Shown here piece after piece: positions 35,163-43,095 of a DNA stretch of 64,000 bases. A program made the translations under genes and the position numbers. The notes beneath the pieces were generated by a model. The model ran no database searches and was not told where the DNA came from. It saw only the letters and a program-made list of their open reading frames with translations. Origin of the DNA: Rhizobium grahamii (GTDB taxonomy: Bacteria > Pseudomonadota > Alphaproteobacteria > Rhizobiales > Rhizobiaceae); the NCBI RefSeq assembly GCF_009498215.1, contig NZ_CP043498.1, positions 1,364,001 through 1,428,000 of the forward strand. The letters are read 5' to 3'. The stretch's first letter is position 1. Each line of letters opens with the position of its first letter.

Positions 35163-35555
35163 TCAGTGCGCCGGAACGACGGCGTTACCCTGGGCAGCCA
35201 GTGCTGCAAGATCAGCCGGCTTCAGCTCGACCGATTCGCCGCAACCGCAGGCGGAGGTCTGATTCGGGTTGGTGAAAGTGAAGCCCGAACGCAATGTCGT
35301 GCTTTCAAACCCCATTTCGGTCCCAAGCAGATAGAGCACGGCTGACGGCTCGACCCAGACCTTGGCGCCATCGCGCTCTATCAGGTCGTCTTTTGCATTC
35401 GGCTCGGTCACGAGGTCGATGGTGTATTCCATCCCTGCGCAGCCGCCCTTTTTGATCCCGACGCGAAGGCCCCTGGCGCCCGGTCCGGAGTTTTCGACGA
35501 TAGCCTTCACGCGGTTCGCGGCAGCCTCCGTCATGCTCATTATTGCAAAGCCCAT
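35163..35555 (-). CDS. sufA: Fe-S cluster assembly accessory protein SufA (A-type carrier)
   Basis: A 130-residue A-type carrier that receives clusters from SufBCD and passes them to client proteins. The three conserved cysteines are visible: KKGGCAGMEYTI and the C-terminal SACGCGES. A GGAAGGAGAAGAGG stretch lies just before ATG 35555. It is the last gene of the suf operon, followed by a clear terminator. A-type proteins SufA, IscA and ErpA are similar; the operon position favours SufA. Confidence 0.92.
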   Translation of the reverse strand: MGFAIMSMTEAAANRVKAIVENSGPGARGLRVGIKKGGCAGMEYTIDLVTEPNAKDDLIERDGAKVWVEPSAVLYLLGTEMGFESTTLRSGFTFTNPNQTSACGCGESVELKPADLAALAAQGNAVVPAH

Positions 35556-35660
35556 AGGCCTCTTCTCCTTCCGCGCACGGATTAAAGGTCCGGCGTTTCA
35601 CGATTCAAATGTAGTGCCAGCAGCTTAACCGATCAATACCAGCCGCGCGAGATGATCGGA

Positions 35661-36041
35661 TCAGTACCAGCCGACCGCGACCTGCGCCTCTTCCGACATG
35701 CGATCAGGCGTCCACGGCGGATCGAAGGTCATTCCGACCTCGACACCGGACACGCCTTCGACAGCACCGACAGCGTTCTCGACCCAGCCCGGCATCTCGC
35801 CGGCAACGGGGCAGCCAGGCGCGGTCAGCGTCATCATGATCTTGACCATGCGATCATCTTCGATATCGATCTTGTAGATCAGCCCGAGTTCGAAGATGTC
35901 GGCAGGAATTTCAGGGTCGTAGACCGTCTTCAGCGCCATGATGACGTCGTCGCTGAGGCGCGCCAGTTCGTCGGCAGGGATGCTGGAATGCACGATGCCT
36001 TCGCGCACGTCGATCTTCTGTTCGCTGTCATCGAGGCTCAT
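35661..36041 (-). CDS. sufT: SufT (DUF59/MIP18 family) Fe-S assembly protein
   Basis: A 126-residue protein of the DUF59 family. Landmarks are ALKTVYDPEIPADIFELGLI and TLTAPGCPVAGEMPGWVE with the conserved Cys. SufT helps mature Fe-S proteins. It sits between sufS and sufA, where rhizobial literature calls the gene sufX. 12 bases separate it from the sufS stop. Confidence 0.93.
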   Translation of the reverse strand: MSLDDSEQKIDVREGIVHSSIPADELARLSDDVIMALKTVYDPEIPADIFELGLIYKIDIEDDRMVKIMMTLTAPGCPVAGEMPGWVENAVGAVEGVSGVEVGMTFDPPWTPDRMSEEAQVAVGWY

Positions 36042-36053
36042 ACGGCCTACTCC

Positions 36054-37295
36054 TTATGCAAAGAACTTGCGCGCATACTCAAGCGCGTCGGCCAAGGCAT
36101 CCACCTCGGCGCGGGTATTGTACATGCCGAAAGATGCACGGCATGTGGAGGTGACGCCGAAGCGTTTCAAGAGCGGCATGGCGCAATGGGTGCCGGCGCG
36201 GACTGCAACGCCCTGCCGGTCGATCACCATCGACACGTCATGAGCATGCAGACCGGCAAGCTCGAATGAGAAGATGCCGCCCTTGCCCGGCGCCGTCCCG
36301 AACACCCGCAACGAATTGACTGCCTGCAGTCGCTCCGCGGCATAGGTTGCGAGATCCGCCTCATGGCGCGCAATCGCCTCGCGGCCGACTTTCTCCATGT
36401 AGTCGAGCGCATAGCCGAGCCCGATCGCCTGCACGATCGGAGGCGTTCCGGCTTCGAAGCGGTGCGGCGGATCGTTGTAGGTCACGGCATCCTCCGTCAC
36501 CTCGAAGATCATCTCGCCACCGCCCTGGAAGGGCCGCATCTCGCGAAGCCGATCCTTCTTGCCATAGAGCACGCCGATGCCCGACGGCCCATAGAGCTTG
36601 TGGCCGGTCATCACGTACCAGTCGCAATCGATGTCCTGCACGTCGACGGGCATGTGGACGGCGCCCTGCGAACCATCGACCAGCACGGGAATGCCGCGCT
36701 CATGCGCGATCCGGCAGATTTCCCTGACCGGAACGACTGTGCCGAGCGCATTCGACATATGCGTGATGGCAACGAGCTTCGTCCGCTCCGTCAGGCTCTT
36801 CTCGAAATCCTCGATGTGAAAAGCGCCTTCGTCGTCGACAGGCACCCAGACCAGCCTGGCGCCCTGCCGCTCGCGGATGAAATGCCACGGCACGATGTTG
36901 GAGTGATGCTCCATGATCGAGATGACGATCTCGTCGCCCTCGCCGATCTTGGGCATGCCCCAGCCATAGGCGACAGTGTTGATTGCTTCCGTCGAAGACT
37001 TCGTGAAGATGATGTCGTTGACATCGGGCGCATTGAGGAAGCGCCTCACTTTCTCCCGAGCGCCCTCATAGGCGTCCGTTGCCGCATTCGAGAGAAAATG
37101 CAGGCCGCGATGAACGTTCGCATACTCGTTTGAATAAGCATGCGAGATCGCGTCGATAACGACCTGCGGCTTCTGTGCAGAGGCGCCGTTGTCGAGATAG
37201 ACCAGCGGCTTGCCATAGACTTCCTTAGCAAGGATCGGGAAATCCTTGCGAATGGCTTCGACGTCGTATGCTGTGGCCGGAACTATCTTGTCCAT
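36054..37295 (-). CDS. sufS: cysteine desulfurase SufS (class II)
   Basis: A PLP enzyme that removes sulfur from cysteine for Fe-S assembly. In this 413-residue protein the PLP-binding Lys lies in VMTGHKLYGPSGIGVLYG, and the active-site Cys in RAGTHCAMPLLKRFG, the short loop form typical of SufS/CsdA type enzymes. The N-terminal VEAIRKDFPILAKEVYGKPL also matches. It is the fifth gene of the operon; a second, NifS/IscS-like desulfurase is the first gene. Confidence 0.95.
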   Translation of the reverse strand: MDKIVPATAYDVEAIRKDFPILAKEVYGKPLVYLDNGASAQKPQVVIDAISHAYSNEYANVHRGLHFLSNAATDAYEGAREKVRRFLNAPDVNDIIFTKSSTEAINTVAYGWGMPKIGEGDEIVISIMEHHSNIVPWHFIRERQGARLVWVPVDDEGAFHIEDFEKSLTERTKLVAITHMSNALGTVVPVREICRIAHERGIPVLVDGSQGAVHMPVDVQDIDCDWYVMTGHKLYGPSGIGVLYGKKDRLREMRPFQGGGEMIFEVTEDAVTYNDPPHRFEAGTPPIVQAIGLGYALDYMEKVGREAIARHEADLATYAAERLQAVNSLRVFGTAPGKGGIFSFELAGLHAHDVSMVIDRQGVAVRAGTHCAMPLLKRFGVTSTCRASFGMYNTRAEVDALADALEYARKFFA

Positions 37296-37307
37296 TTCGC
37301 TATCCGA

Positions 37308-38582
37308 TCAGGCGTGCTTTTCGAGCCAAGCCGAGATCACGCTTTCCAGCGACTCGACGAGGGCTTCGTCTTCCAGTTCCTCGACGATCTCGGCAACGAA
37401 GGCGTTGACGAGCATGGCACGCGCCTTGTTCTCCGGAATGCCGCGAGCCATCAGATAGTAGAGATGGTTGTGGTCGATATCCGCAACGGTTGCGCCGTGG
37501 CCGCACTGGACGTCGTCTGCGAAGATCTCGAGTTCCGGCTTCACCGAGAATTCGGCGTCGTCGGACATTAGCAGCGTGTTGCACGCCATCTTGGCGTCGG
37601 TCTTCTGCGCATCCGGCGCAACGCGGATCATCCCCTGGAAGACACCCTTGGCGCGGTCGAAGACCACGTTGCGGATGACTTCGGTGGAGCCCGTATGCGG
37701 AACGTTGTGGCCGAGAACCATGGTCACGTCGGTATGGGTTTCGGCGCCCAGCAGGTTGATGCCACGCAGCGTCAGATCGGCACCCTCGCCCGTCACCTTG
37801 ATGTGCAGCTCCTGGCGAACCAGCTTGCCGCCGGCATTGATGACGAAAAGCTTCAGCTTCGCATCGGCGCCGAGGTCGACGCGGATCTGGCCGAGATGCG
37901 TATCCTCGGCACCCTGCTGCTGGACAATGATCCAGGTAAGCTCGGCGCCTTCTCCGACCGTGATGTCACTGACATGCGACACGAAGGCAGCATCCGACGT
38001 CACTGCCAGGTGACGCTCGATGACAACAGCCTTAACGTTGGCGCCGAAGCTGACCGGCAGGCGCGTATGTGCCTGGCCACCGGCGTGAACGAACTGTATC
38101 TCCAACGGCTCTTCAAGCGAAGTGTCAGCGGCAACGTCGATGACATAGCCATCGCGCACGAAGCTGCCGTTGATGCGACCGATCGCGTCGTCGTTGCCGA
38201 GCGCGCCGAGGCTCGTCGCAGCCGTGCCGTTTGACAGCTGGGCCGCGTAGGCCGAAATGTCGAGGCCATCGACCGAAGCCTTGAGGTTGGGAACGCCCTG
38301 AATGACCGAGAGAACAGAGGACTCTTCGACCAGCGGATCGCGGGCTTCGGAGCCGGCGTCGCCGGCCGGTTCCGGAATGGCGCGCAGCAGGGTCTTGAGG
38401 TCGGTGTAGTGCCACGCCTCGACGCGGCGCGTCGGCAGCCCGGCCTTCTTCAGGTCGTCAAGCAGGCGGTCGCGGATGGCGATAACCGAACCGTCGCCCG
38501 GCAGTTCGCCGATCTGATTGTTGAAAGCCTCGATGAGCGCCGCTTCCGCGGCGGTCTGGCGGTTAGTCGTCTGCATATTCAT
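37308..38582 (-). CDS. sufD: Fe-S cluster assembly scaffold subunit SufD
   Basis: A 424-residue protein with the SufB/SufD beta-helix core. The C-terminal half has GVFQGMIRVAPDAQKTDAKM and SVKPELEIFADDVQCGHGAT, then LYYLMARGIPENKARAML, all SufBD family landmarks. SufD forms the SufBC2D scaffold with SufB and SufC. It ends 12 bases before the sufS start and starts 23 bases after the sufC stop. Confidence 0.95.
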   Translation of the reverse strand: MNMQTTNRQTAAEAALIEAFNNQIGELPGDGSVIAIRDRLLDDLKKAGLPTRRVEAWHYTDLKTLLRAIPEPAGDAGSEARDPLVEESSVLSVIQGVPNLKASVDGLDISAYAAQLSNGTAATSLGALGNDDAIGRINGSFVRDGYVIDVAADTSLEEPLEIQFVHAGGQAHTRLPVSFGANVKAVVIERHLAVTSDAAFVSHVSDITVGEGAELTWIIVQQQGAEDTHLGQIRVDLGADAKLKLFVINAGGKLVRQELHIKVTGEGADLTLRGINLLGAETHTDVTMVLGHNVPHTGSTEVIRNVVFDRAKGVFQGMIRVAPDAQKTDAKMACNTLLMSDDAEFSVKPELEIFADDVQCGHGATVADIDHNHLYYLMARGIPENKARAMLVNAFVAEIVEELEDEALVESLESVISAWLEKHA

Positions 38583-38605
38583 GCGACCAGTCCTTTCCGC
38601 CGTGA

Positions 38606-39361
38606 TCAGGCTGCCGCACCGATGATGTCGGCGTAGCCATTGGCTTCCAGCTCATGCGCCAGCGTCTTGTCGCCCGACTTGATCACCTGGCCCTTGTAGA
38701 GAACGTGAACCGTATCCGGGACGATGTAGTCGAGCAGACGCTGGTAGTGCGTGATGACGATGACGGCGCGATCCGGCGAACGCAGCGCATTGACACCGTC
38801 GGCAACGATCTTCAGCGCATCGATGTCGAGGCCGGAGTCGGTTTCGTCAAGAACGCAAAGCTGCGGCTGCAACAACGCCATCTGCAGGATTTCGGCGCGC
38901 TTCTTCTCACCGCCGGAGAAACCGACGTTCAGCGGGCGCTTCAGCATTTCAGTGTTAATCTGCAGCTTGGCGGCAGCATCCTTGACGAGGCGCATGAAGT
39001 CAGGCGTCTTCAGCTCTTCTTCGCCGCGAGCCTTGCGCTGCTCGTTCATCGCGACCTTCAGGAACTGCATCGTCGCAACGCCCGGAATTTCGACAGGGTA
39101 CTGGAAAGCGAGGAAGATGCCCTTGGCGGCGCGCTCGGCAGCGTCGAGCTCCAGGATGCTCTCGCCGTTGTAAAGGATGTCGCCTTCGGTGACTTCGTAG
39201 TCTTCGCGGCCCGACAGGATGTAGGAAAGCGTCGACTTGCCGGAGCCGTTCGGACCCATGATGGCGGCAACTTCGCCAGCCTTCACGGTGAGGTTCAGGC
39301 CGCGGATGATCTCGGTGCCGTCTTCGGCGATGCGGGCGTGCAGGTTCTTAATCTCAAGCAT
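38606..39361 (-). CDS. sufC: Fe-S assembly ATPase SufC
   Basis: The ABC-type ATPase subunit of the SufBC2D scaffold, 251 residues. Walker A is MGPNGSGKST, the ABC signature GFSGGEKKRAEIL, and Walker B LCVLDETDSGLDIDALK; VITHYQRLLDYI contains the switch His. ATG 39361 (MLEIKNLHARI) is chosen; the open frame to 39418 runs into the intergenic space. Confidence 0.96.
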   Translation of the reverse strand: MLEIKNLHARIAEDGTEIIRGLNLTVKAGEVAAIMGPNGSGKSTLSYILSGREDYEVTEGDILYNGESILELDAAERAAKGIFLAFQYPVEIPGVATMQFLKVAMNEQRKARGEEELKTPDFMRLVKDAAAKLQINTEMLKRPLNVGFSGGEKKRAEILQMALLQPQLCVLDETDSGLDIDALKIVADGVNALRSPDRAVIVITHYQRLLDYIVPDTVHVLYKGQVIKSGDKTLAHELEANGYADIIGAAA

Positions 39362-39434
39362 GGTCTTGTCCCATAAAAAGCAATCGGAGAAAGGCGCGAT
39401 CCACGCGCCCTCGCGCATTCATTTTCGTGTTGCG

Positions 39435-40904
<1,470 letters not shown>

Positions 40905-41016
40905 GTCATTCTCCAATCTCGCCGGAGAAAAGGTCCGGCAGCTTGTCGTGCGGGCAGTATTGTTTGCCCCGTATGTAGGTGGCCAAAAGGGACTTTTCAG
41001 CCCGAATGGCAAGCGG

Positions 41017-41047: not shown

Positions 41048-42214
41048 TCACGCCGCCTCCCCGGCCGGCTTGCGCCGGGCGGCAATTTTGGCAAAGACGG
41101 AAATCGCTCGATCGATCTCCTCTTCGGTCGTGGCAAAGCCCAACGAAATACGCAAAGCACCGAGCTTGGGGTCGCGCCCCATGGCGACCAGAACATGACT
41201 TTCGCCGACCTTGCCGGACGAGCAGGCAGAGCCGGCGGAAAGCGCAACGCCTTCGAGATCGAAGGCGATCTGGCCCGTTTCGGCTTTCAACCCTGGAAGG
41301 GTGAAGAAAGTCGTGTTCGAAACACGCTCTCCTTCGGCGCCGTAGACGACAACATCGGGTGCAGCCCCACGCATGCCGCTTTCCAGTCGATCTCGCAAAG
41401 CCGAAATTGCCGCGTTGCGCGCATCGAATTCCGCGACAGCAGCTTGCGCGGCCGCGCCGAAGCCGATCACCGCCAATGAATTCTCTGTCCCCGAGCGGTG
41501 ACCCTTCTCCTGACCACCGCCATGGATCAAGGGCCGCGGCATCAGCACTTCACCGCGCGTGACCAGCGCGCCGGCGCCTTTGGGGCCGCCGATCTTGTGG
41601 GACGAGACGATCATGAAATCCGCGCCAAGCGCGTTGATGTCGAGTTTCAGCCGGCCAGATGCCTGTACCGCATCCACAACAAGCAGCCCGCCCTGCGCCT
41701 GCACGATCTTCGCAATATCGGCGATCGGCTGAACGATACCGGTCTCGTTGTTGACGAGCATGACCGCAACCATTGGTAACCCGGCCGACTTGTCGTGAGC
41801 CGCAAGCAAAGCACCCAGAGCGTCAAGATCGACAACGCCGTCAGACGTCACCGGGATTTCGGTCGTCTTGTCCTTTGGAAACCGTCCGCCCTCGCGCACC
41901 GCCGGATGCTCGACCGCCGAATAGTAGAGCCGACCGATCGCTATCGGCGTCCGCCCCATCTTGAAATCAGGCGTCAGCACCATGTTTGCTGCTTCGGTAG
42001 CGCCGCTGGTAAAGATCACATGCGCGGGATCGGCACCGACAAGCGTTGCGACCTGCCGGCGTGCCTGCTCGATCACGGCCCGCACAGCCCGGCCTTCGCC
42101 ATGCACAGAGTTCGGATTGCCGAAAAGATCCAGCGCACGCAGAACCGCGTCGCGCGCATGTGGATGCAGCGGCGAGGTCGCGTTCCAGTCGAGATAAAGG
42201 CGTGGCGGCGCCAT
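41048..42214 (-). CDS. sufS2: cysteine desulfurase, NifS/IscS type (first suf operon gene)
   Basis: A 388-residue PLP-dependent desulfurase of the NifS/IscS subgroup. Landmarks are LDWNATSPLHPHAR, ATEAANMVL, the PLP-Lys region VSSHKIGGPKGAGALV, and the Cys loop LSAGSACSSGKVGESHVL, the long-loop form unlike the SufS gene downstream. Rhizobial suf operons begin with such a gene, known as sufS2 in R. leguminosarum. It starts at ATG 42214 downstream of a predicted iron-regulated promoter. Confidence 0.88.
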   Translation of the reverse strand: MAPPRLYLDWNATSPLHPHARDAVLRALDLFGNPNSVHGEGRAVRAVIEQARRQVATLVGADPAHVIFTSGATEAANMVLTPDFKMGRTPIAIGRLYYSAVEHPAVREGGRFPKDKTTEIPVTSDGVVDLDALGALLAAHDKSAGLPMVAVMLVNNETGIVQPIADIAKIVQAQGGLLVVDAVQASGRLKLDINALGADFMIVSSHKIGGPKGAGALVTRGEVLMPRPLIHGGGQEKGHRSGTENSLAVIGFGAAAQAAVAEFDARNAAISALRDRLESGMRGAAPDVVVYGAEGERVSNTTFFTLPGLKAETGQIAFDLEGVALSAGSACSSGKVGESHVLVAMGRDPKLGALRISLGFATTEEEIDRAISVFAKIAARRKPAGEAA

Positions 42215-42324
42215 GATCTTTGTCCTGCGCTTTAAGCTTGCACGACGCCTCGGCTCATTTTCCTTGAAATTTCGGCCGGGCTTGCCTTATGACACATCCC
42301 ACAATGCGTGGATCGCCATGCAAG

Positions 42325-42373
42325 TTTCGAATTGTTCTAAACTGCGTTTTAGAAAAGCTGACAACGTCCGTCA
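42325..42373 (-). promoter_or_regulatory. predicted iron-regulated suf promoter with ICE (Irr) and IRO (RirA)-like sites
   Basis: On the minus strand, TTGTCA (complement of 42359-42364) and TTTAGA (complement of 42336-42341) are 17 bases apart and form a promoter reading into sufS2. Plus-strand TTTCGAATTGTTCTAAA (42325-42341) matches the rhizobial Irr box TTTAGAA-N3-TTCTAAA except at one position and covers the -10. TGA-CAACGTCCG-TCA (42359-42373) fits the RirA motif TGA-N9-TCA and covers the -35. The motif consensuses are recalled from the rhizobial iron literature; binding is inferred. Confidence 0.65.
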
Positions 42374-42417
42374 AGTCTGCGCAGCATGAACGCGAAGAAA
42401 TAAACGCCGGAGTACCG

Positions 42418-43095
42418 ATGCCCGAAGTCATTTTCAACGGCCCCGCAGGCCGCCTTGAAGGCCGCTACCAGCCCTCCAAGGAGAAAAGCGCGCCGATTGC
42501 CCTCATTCTGCACCCGCACCCACAGTTCGGCGGCACGATGAACAACCAGATCGTCTACCAGCTCTTCTACATGTTCCAGAAGCGCGGTTTTACGACACTG
42601 CGTTTCAATTTCCGGGGAATCGGTCGTAGCCAGGGTGAATTCGACCATGGCGCCGGCGAGCTTTCCGATGCAGCCTCAGCCCTCGACTGGGTGCAGAGCC
42701 TACATCCTGATTCGAAGACCTGCTGGGTTGCCGGCTATTCCTTCGGTTCCTGGATCGGCATGCAGCTGCTGATGCGCCGGCCGGAGATCGAAGGCTTCAT
42801 GTCGATTGCGCCGCAGCCGAATACCTACGACTTCTCGTTCCTCGCACCCTGCCCGTCGTCCGGCCTGATCATCAACGGCGACGCCGACAAGGTCGCCCCC
42901 GAAAAGGACGTCAACGGCCTCGTCGAGAAGCTGAAGACGCAGAAGGGCATCCTGATCACGCACCGCACGGTGCCGGGCGCCAATCACTTCTTCAACGGCC
43001 AGGTCGAGACGCTGATGGGCGAATGCGAGGACTACCTCGATCGCCGCCTGAACGGCGAACTGGTGCCTGAGCCGGCCGCCAAGCGTATTCGCTAG
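42418..43095 (+). CDS. alpha/beta hydrolase of unknown substrate
   Basis: A 225-residue alpha/beta hydrolase resembling the YfcA/DUF-type small serine hydrolases. The HPHPQFGGTMNNQIVYQL segment with the oxyanion loop, nucleophile elbow GYSFGSWIG, Asp in INGDADKVAPEKDV and His in VPGANHFFNGQ form the likely triad. GGAG before ATG 42418 supports the start. It is divergent from the suf operon, with the predicted iron-regulated region between. Its stop overlaps the GNAT stop by the CTAG palindrome. Confidence 0.85.
   Translation: MPEVIFNGPAGRLEGRYQPSKEKSAPIALILHPHPQFGGTMNNQIVYQLFYMFQKRGFTTLRFNFRGIGRSQGEFDHGAGELSDAASALDWVQSLHPDSKTCWVAGYSFGSWIGMQLLMRRPEIEGFMSIAPQPNTYDFSFLAPCPSSGLIINGDADKVAPEKDVNGLVEKLKTQKGILITHRTVPGANHFFNGQVETLMGECEDYLDRRLNGELVPEPAAKRIR

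Follow-up and report, generated by a model that had tools for sequence, protein, structure and literature searches.

The window analysed here is a stretch of 64,000 nucleotides from the 5.89-Mb genome of Rhizobium grahamii (contig NZ_CP043498.1, positions 1,364,001 to 1,428,000), and it carries a suf operon on the minus strand, the first gene of which, sufS2, is divergent from an alpha/beta hydrolase gene on the plus strand (Table 1). The best NCBIfam matches of sufS2 are of the NifS/IscS type, every one of them under its cut-off, and among the relatives listed its product is closest to those of Rhizobium species. The remaining genes sufB, sufC, sufD and sufS were named from their sequence and gene order (the naming of sufB is also backed by the annotation of S. 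meliloti), and the last two genes of the operon matched TIGR02945 and TIGR01997 above cut-off. The best solved relative of the hydrolase is Atu1826 of A. tumefaciens (PDB 2i3d). The same gene order, with annotated neighbours, is found in S. meliloti Ak57; in the parts of the literature that were searched by the gene tags of the neighbours, nothing was found on the regulation of these neighbours.

Table 1. Genes, candidate operators and predicted promoter elements at the suf locus (positions in the window)
Feature	Position	Strand	Basis or remark
sufB, sufC, sufD, sufS, SUF-associated gene, sufA (remainder of operon)	35163..41012	-	ORFs
sufS2, IscS/NifS-type cysteine desulfurase, first gene of suf operon	41048..42214	-	ORF; PF00266
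Predicted suf 5' leader, 125 nt	42215..42339	-	from predicted start to sufS2
Putative hydrolase promoter, -35 TTGAAA (CTTGAA from 42263)	42264..42269	+	conservation
Putative hydrolase promoter, -10 TATGAC, spacer 18; predicted start ~42300	42288..42293	+	conservation
ICE-type dyad (candidate Irr operator), 13/14	42325..42341	.	predicted -2 to +15 of suf start
-10 of the sequence-only reading, TTTAGA (first ICE half)	42336..42341	-	sequence
Predicted suf transcription start	42339	-	inference: 7 bases past -10
Probable suf promoter, -10 TAAAAC, spacer 17	42346..42351	-	conservation
-35 of the sequence-only reading, TTGTCA	42359..42364	-	kept in part of genus only
IRO-type site (candidate RirA operator), TGA-N9-TCA	42359..42373	.	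predicted -34 to -20 of suf; overlaps -35
Probable suf promoter, -35 TTGACG (CTTGAC including 42375)	42369..42374	-	CTTGAC in 80/80 genus (best 80 of 468), 82/84 family and 12/16 order-group rows
Divergent alpha/beta hydrolase	42418..43095	+	ORF; profile and structure match

The regions upstream of sufS2 were compared within the genus, the family and a wider order group. The genus rows are the best 80 of 468 sufS2 relatives, all of them named, and a set of 60 genus genomes was used as a tally only. The family set (n = 91) comprises the upstream regions from 90 of 150 matching family genomes together with that of genome G327, the 58 lowest-ranked matches, the source genome itself and G029 being left out; the order group adds 25 rows from 131 matching genomes. 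The group labels are imperfect, as the order group (L143-L167) includes one member of the family (L143) and the family set includes one row of the same genus (L112). The regions were aligned on the ICE-type dyad, for which at least 11 of the 14 letters were required, a level reached by 80/80 genus, 84/91 family and 16/25 order-group rows. Genes for Irr and RirA were checked in 80 genomes, i.e., the source genome and 79 of the 91 family rows. Named rows of Sinorhizobium and Shinella came from a search of PLSDB, in which some chromosome-sized records are labelled as plasmids. The divergent hydrolase was present in all 91 family rows and in 22 of the 25 order-group rows.

The sequence-only reading of the locus had described an ICE match, perfect bar one base, between the divergent sufS2 and hydrolase genes, and this was confirmed: TTTCGAATTGTTCTAAA, read on the plus strand, agrees in 13 of 14 letters with TTTAGAA-N3-TTCTAAA, which we take to be the consensus of the ICE dyad. 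The 17-mer occurs a single time in the source genome with up to one mismatch allowed, and the consensus is found there at six places with at most one mismatch and at 12 places with at most two (three for a reversed-pattern control). The best upstream ICE scored 13/14 in all of the best 80 of the 468 genus rows, which carry 26 distinct core sequences. The off-consensus position is letter 14, which is G in each of these 80 rows and G in 26, A in 53, C in four and T in one of the 84 family rows (the T row deviates at another letter). The consensus base at this letter was thus never found in the genus rows and only once in the family rows, a pattern that would fit a preference for a weaker operator. 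Among the rows examined, a perfect dyad upstream of the sufS2 match was seen only in L161, a row of the order group. Of 40 family genomes, 30 contain a perfect dyad at some locus (the control gave one match in one genome), and at the 30 loci compared, one per genome, TTGAC lies 25-27 bases upstream of the ICE in 15, at other distances in four, and nowhere within 45 bases in 11. At the 15 loci with the 25-27-base distance the ICE therefore overlaps the -10, and the suf ICE sits 6-8 bases further downstream than it does there. A single gene for Irr was found above cut-off in the source genome (NF045678, IrrA; 230.9 bits versus 150), and Irr was above cut-off in 80/80 of the family genomes checked, so that the idea that the ICE was lost along with Irr is not borne out.

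The dyad recurs at other iron genes of the source genome, several of whose proteins scored under the NCBIfam cut-offs. The six sites with at most one mismatch adjoin mbfA, nfu, genes for a ferrichrome-type binding protein, cytochrome b561 and a generic solute-binding protein (at L230, not clearly iron-related), and suf; a further site with two mismatches lies upstream of rirA. One-mismatch sites were observed immediately ahead of the genes for an nfu-type Fe-S scaffold (L231), a ferrichrome/ferrioxamine-type binding protein (L232) and a cytochrome b561 (L229), and these three are candidate Irr targets. The iron exporter gene mbfA (L228:1417-2510, contig C1), beside a perfect ICE at 3665052, is apparently split: positions 1-87 and 106-317 of the mbfA profile match two ORFs in different reading frames, which indicates either a frameshift or a sequence error. 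Among the 30 perfect-ICE loci, mbfA was identified only at that of the source genome.

The second motif noticed earlier, TGA-N9-TCA, is likewise present where it had been placed, 17 bases from the ICE (TGACAACGTCCGTCA), and has the form given for the RirA operator, or IRO, in the available text of PMC6386902. It is intact in every one of the best 80 of the 468 genus rows, so that both motifs are conserved in close relatives. Among the ICE-bearing family rows, 32/32 of those with a SufS2 identity of 63% or more have it, as do 1/52 of those under this value, a cut that was picked after inspecting the rows. There are 19 distinct versions of the site in the 32 near-family rows, in all of which TGA and TCA are invariant and the middle letters vary; a motif with six fixed letters is weak evidence alone, and this one is credible because it is conserved. 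A single gene for RirA was found above cut-off in the source genome (NF008886; 290.8 bits versus 193), as was RirA in 79 of the 80 genomes checked. Loss of RirA as the cause of the missing IRO is therefore not borne out, and, because the site divides by SufS2 identity although RirA is present in nearly all genomes checked, the IRO at suf marks one branch of the family. One RirA homologue above cut-off (G177:C18:43311-43757) reads through an in-frame TGA.

A conserved pattern, CTTGAC-N17-CTAAAA or CTAGAA, lies upstream of sufS2, and the rhizobial sigma-70 consensus is CTTGAC-N17-CTATAT according to the available text of PMC2873474. In all of the best 80 of 468 genus rows CTTGAC is found 33 bases before the ICE and is followed after 17 bases by a -10 of the form TA-A; in 82 of 84 family rows its distance to the ICE is 29-34 bases, and TTGAC is kept in all 84. 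The -10 agrees with TATAAT in at least four of six letters (best of spacers 15-19) in 80/80 genus (best 80 of 468), 81/84 family and 13/16 order-group rows. The whole pattern was found in 83/91 family rows against a mean of 0.50 in two-base-block shuffles. Both hexamers and their spacing are thus conserved, which is the mark of a rhizobial sigma-70 promoter, and on this ground CTTGAC-N17-CTAAAA is the most likely suf promoter, a short way upstream of the position assigned to it in the sequence-only reading. With the promoter in this position, the IRO, the TGA of which is the TGA of the -35, would lie on the likely -35, and the ICE would lie on the start site rather than on the -10.

The promoter pattern is kept in a few rows in which the dyad is degraded. 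L219 has only an 8/14 resemblance to the ICE, yet keeps TTGACG-N17-TATGAC; L183 and L189 (one genus) keep CTTGAC-N17-CTAGAA with an ICE below 11/14, and cannot serve as clear examples of an operator-free promoter, because a 10/14 ICE-like stretch runs across their -10. Four rows of three genera (L172, L174, L175 and L185) show neither a CTTGAC promoter nor an ICE before sufS2, and Irr is above cut-off in all four. A further ICE half (TTCTAAA), seen in the -35/-10 region of just 14 of 84 family rows, was set aside. A strict scan for promoters of the E. coli type (at least 9/12 letters, -10 with A second and T last) returned none between 42200 and 42450 on either strand (the -10 boxes proposed here for suf and for the hydrolase both lack the final T); this failure counts against the strength of the promoter, and equally against the version proposed earlier.

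A second conserved block, missed by the sequence-only reading, was recognised within the suf leader in the aligned family rows. On the plus strand it reads CTTGAA-N18-TATGAC in the window, i.e., toward the hydrolase, and in much of the family its -10 is CTATCT- or CTATTT-like. A narrower first pattern (CTTGAA) was found in 78/80 genus (best 80 of 468) and 79/91 family rows, and the final one in 80/80 and 87/91, respectively, against a mean of 0.26 of 91 in two-base-block shuffles, a comparison that is flattering because the pattern had been widened after the misses were viewed. Outside the family the block was found in none of the 21 rows with a divergent hydrolase (the single hit in 22 rows of the order group is the family member L143). 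Within the family, its hexamers and spacing are conserved and linked to the hydrolase gene, in the manner of a sigma-70 promoter. The predicted suf and hydrolase transcripts start face to face with an overlap of 29-56 bases in 78 of the 81 family rows that have both promoters (39 bases in the window). The three exceptions are L178, L180 and L212, in the last of which a later TTGAC was taken, the row being ordinary by eye. In L178 and L180 (one genus) the two promoters are arranged back to back, 151 bases separating their predicted starts; the block is found on the side of the hydrolase, beyond the predicted suf transcript, and the suf promoter is found with its ICE on that of suf.

Other explanations can be given for these elements. 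The promoter of the sequence-only reading, TTGTCA-N17-TTTAGA with its hexamers inside the two operators and a start near 42328, is exact in the window in letters and in spacing; TTGTCA is kept in 61 of the best 80 of 468 genus rows, and the geometry is near that of the many perfect-ICE loci at which the dyad overlaps the -10. TTGTCA is, however, replaced by CGCTCA in the remaining 19 of these 80 rows, occurs in 1/84 family (the same-genus row L112) and 0/16 order-group rows, and is absent from the records of S. meliloti, Shinella and Sinorhizobium sp. that were inspected, while the ICE and CTTGAC stay; in addition, TTTAGA agrees with TATAAT in only three of six letters and lacks the second A. 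We therefore consider it very improbable that the operators themselves supply the -35 and -10, and the predicted start moves to ~42339. The block at ~42263-42293 could be an RNA element of the suf leader, or the site of a third regulator of suf, and no promoter. It lies inside the predicted leader, where a role as RNA or as a protein-binding site on the suf side is possible in rows with normal spacing, it is conserved across the aligned family rows, and the fold of the leader beats shuffles somewhat (z -2.0, with 6 of 200 as good). Against this, L172, L174, L175 and L185 retain the block where neither the suf promoter pattern nor the ICE is matched, L178 and L180 carry it outside the predicted suf transcript, its -35/-10-like spacing is fixed at 18 in the 87 matching family rows, and no Rfam match up to E 5 was found at the block (one sub-threshold snoRNA match, at 42002-42096, is outside the suf leader). 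A role confined to suf is thus rather unlikely; since the block is kept where it is decoupled from the suf promoter, it most likely belongs to the hydrolase and is probably its promoter. A leader peptide in the suf leader (AAGGAAAATG) was also considered and rejected, because the open frame is, by eye, not kept in relatives.

It could further be argued that only Irr acts at suf and that TGA-N9-TCA is a by-product of the -35 and a chance TCA. The motif is short, its TGA comes free with CTTGAC, and it is missing from 51 of the 84 ICE-bearing family rows although nearly all genomes checked have RirA. TCA is nevertheless invariant in 80/80 genus (best 80 of 468) and 32/32 near-family rows in which the adjoining spacer letters vary, and the RirA regulon of R. 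leguminosarum lists suf (available text of PMC5863699). A fortuitous TCA is accordingly improbable, and we favour, with fairly good confidence, a suf promoter that carries two operators opposite in logic and is interlocked with the divergent promoter of the hydrolase. The dual control by RirA and Irr proposed by the sequence-only reading is strengthened by the conserved sites, by the presence of both regulator genes and by the precedent of R. leguminosarum; what has to be given up is the use of the motifs as promoter boxes. It concluded that the promoter would be blocked by either regulator, and this can be retained once the geometry is corrected, the IRO being on the predicted -35 and the ICE on the predicted start. 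The opposite iron states in which Irr and RirA act were not mentioned in it.

In the interlocked arrangement that we favour, sigma-70 polymerase would use CTTGAC-N17-CTAAAA and start suf at ~42339. Under iron-replete conditions, [4Fe-4S] RirA bound to the IRO would hide the -35, the first half of the IRO being the TGA of this hexamer; under iron-poor conditions, haem-free Irr bound to the ICE at the start site would block opening or escape. With RirA and Irr repression opposed, suf would be held down at both extremes of iron, and it would be freest at intermediate iron or when the cluster of RirA is damaged by O2. A second polymerase would use CTTGAA-N18-TATGAC in the suf leader and run the opposite way from ~42300 toward the hydrolase gene, so that its transcript would cross the suf start, the ICE and the IRO. 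From this map, the two promoters would be expected to interfere, and polymerase on its way to the hydrolase gene may meet a roadblock in either regulator when it is bound. With two opposed repressors acting at a single promoter, the expected response of suf to iron is flat. In S. meliloti, suf is listed as RirA-regulated but not iron-responsive (available text of PMC6386902), which opposed repressors could explain; the agreement is consistent with the model and is not proof of it. The available text of PMC7762939 states that Irr and RirA act in an antiparallel way and that Irr represses or activates depending on the position of the ICE.

Taken together, these elements allow a wider and more tentative reading, which we regard as plausible without leaning toward it. 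The face-to-face pair of suf and hydrolase promoters would be family-wide, with starts about 40 bases apart and with the iron operators between the hydrolase start and its gene; at this distance two polymerases facing each other could not easily occupy both promoters at once. The opposed repressors, placed on the -35 and the start, respectively, would make suf flat toward iron, the hydrolase would enter the iron circuit as a roadblocked transcript, and the IRO would have been gained in one branch when a TCA arose beside the TGA of the -35. Since suf makes the type of cluster that is sensed by RirA, the suf promoter would close a loop of the iron circuit. With the operators correctly placed, what was a loose idea can be put into precise mutants (of the -35, the TCA and an ICE half, each on its own); the placement also gives a simple explanation for the iron-flat suf reported in S. 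meliloti, and it suggests that a little-studied, structurally solved family of hydrolases shares iron control.

Dual control of suf by RirA and Irr is already known. For the exact suf promoter, the operator positions, the gain of the IRO in one branch and the hydrolase promoter that faces suf, no description was found in the literature searched, which consists of partial texts and does not include the primary papers on R. leguminosarum, on A. tumefaciens and on regulon reconstruction, so that an earlier account may exist. Among the closest known systems is that of R. leguminosarum, in which the same operon is under the same two regulators (PMC5863699); the available text of that account gave no operator positions, start site or facing hydrolase promoter. 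The genome of R. johnstonii 3841 (L056) has the same ICE, IRO, CTTGAC and hydrolase block as the source genome. The sufS2 of A. tumefaciens (Bhubhanil 2014, as cited in the available text of PMC5863699; also cited in PMC8300815) is RirA-regulated and derepressed by oxidative stress, and resembles the present locus in the candidate control by RirA. The isc-suf operon of Rhodobacter sphaeroides (available text of PMC6956336) is similar in that Irr binds a site at promoter P3 and antisense promoters contribute to expression. It differs in that IscR is the main regulator, RirA homologues are without effect and the Irr site lies ~50 nt before the start instead of covering it; binding of Irr was not confirmed there at two predicted isc-suf sites, which counts against our interpretation. 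The promoters with a perfect ICE, e.g., that of mbfA in the source genome, likewise combine TTGAC with an ICE at the core, but there the dyad is perfect, whereas letter 14 of the suf dyad is G, A or C in every family row except one, and at 15 of the 30 loci the perfect dyad stands nearer to the -35 by the 6-8 bases that separate an ICE overlapping the -10 from one on the predicted suf start.
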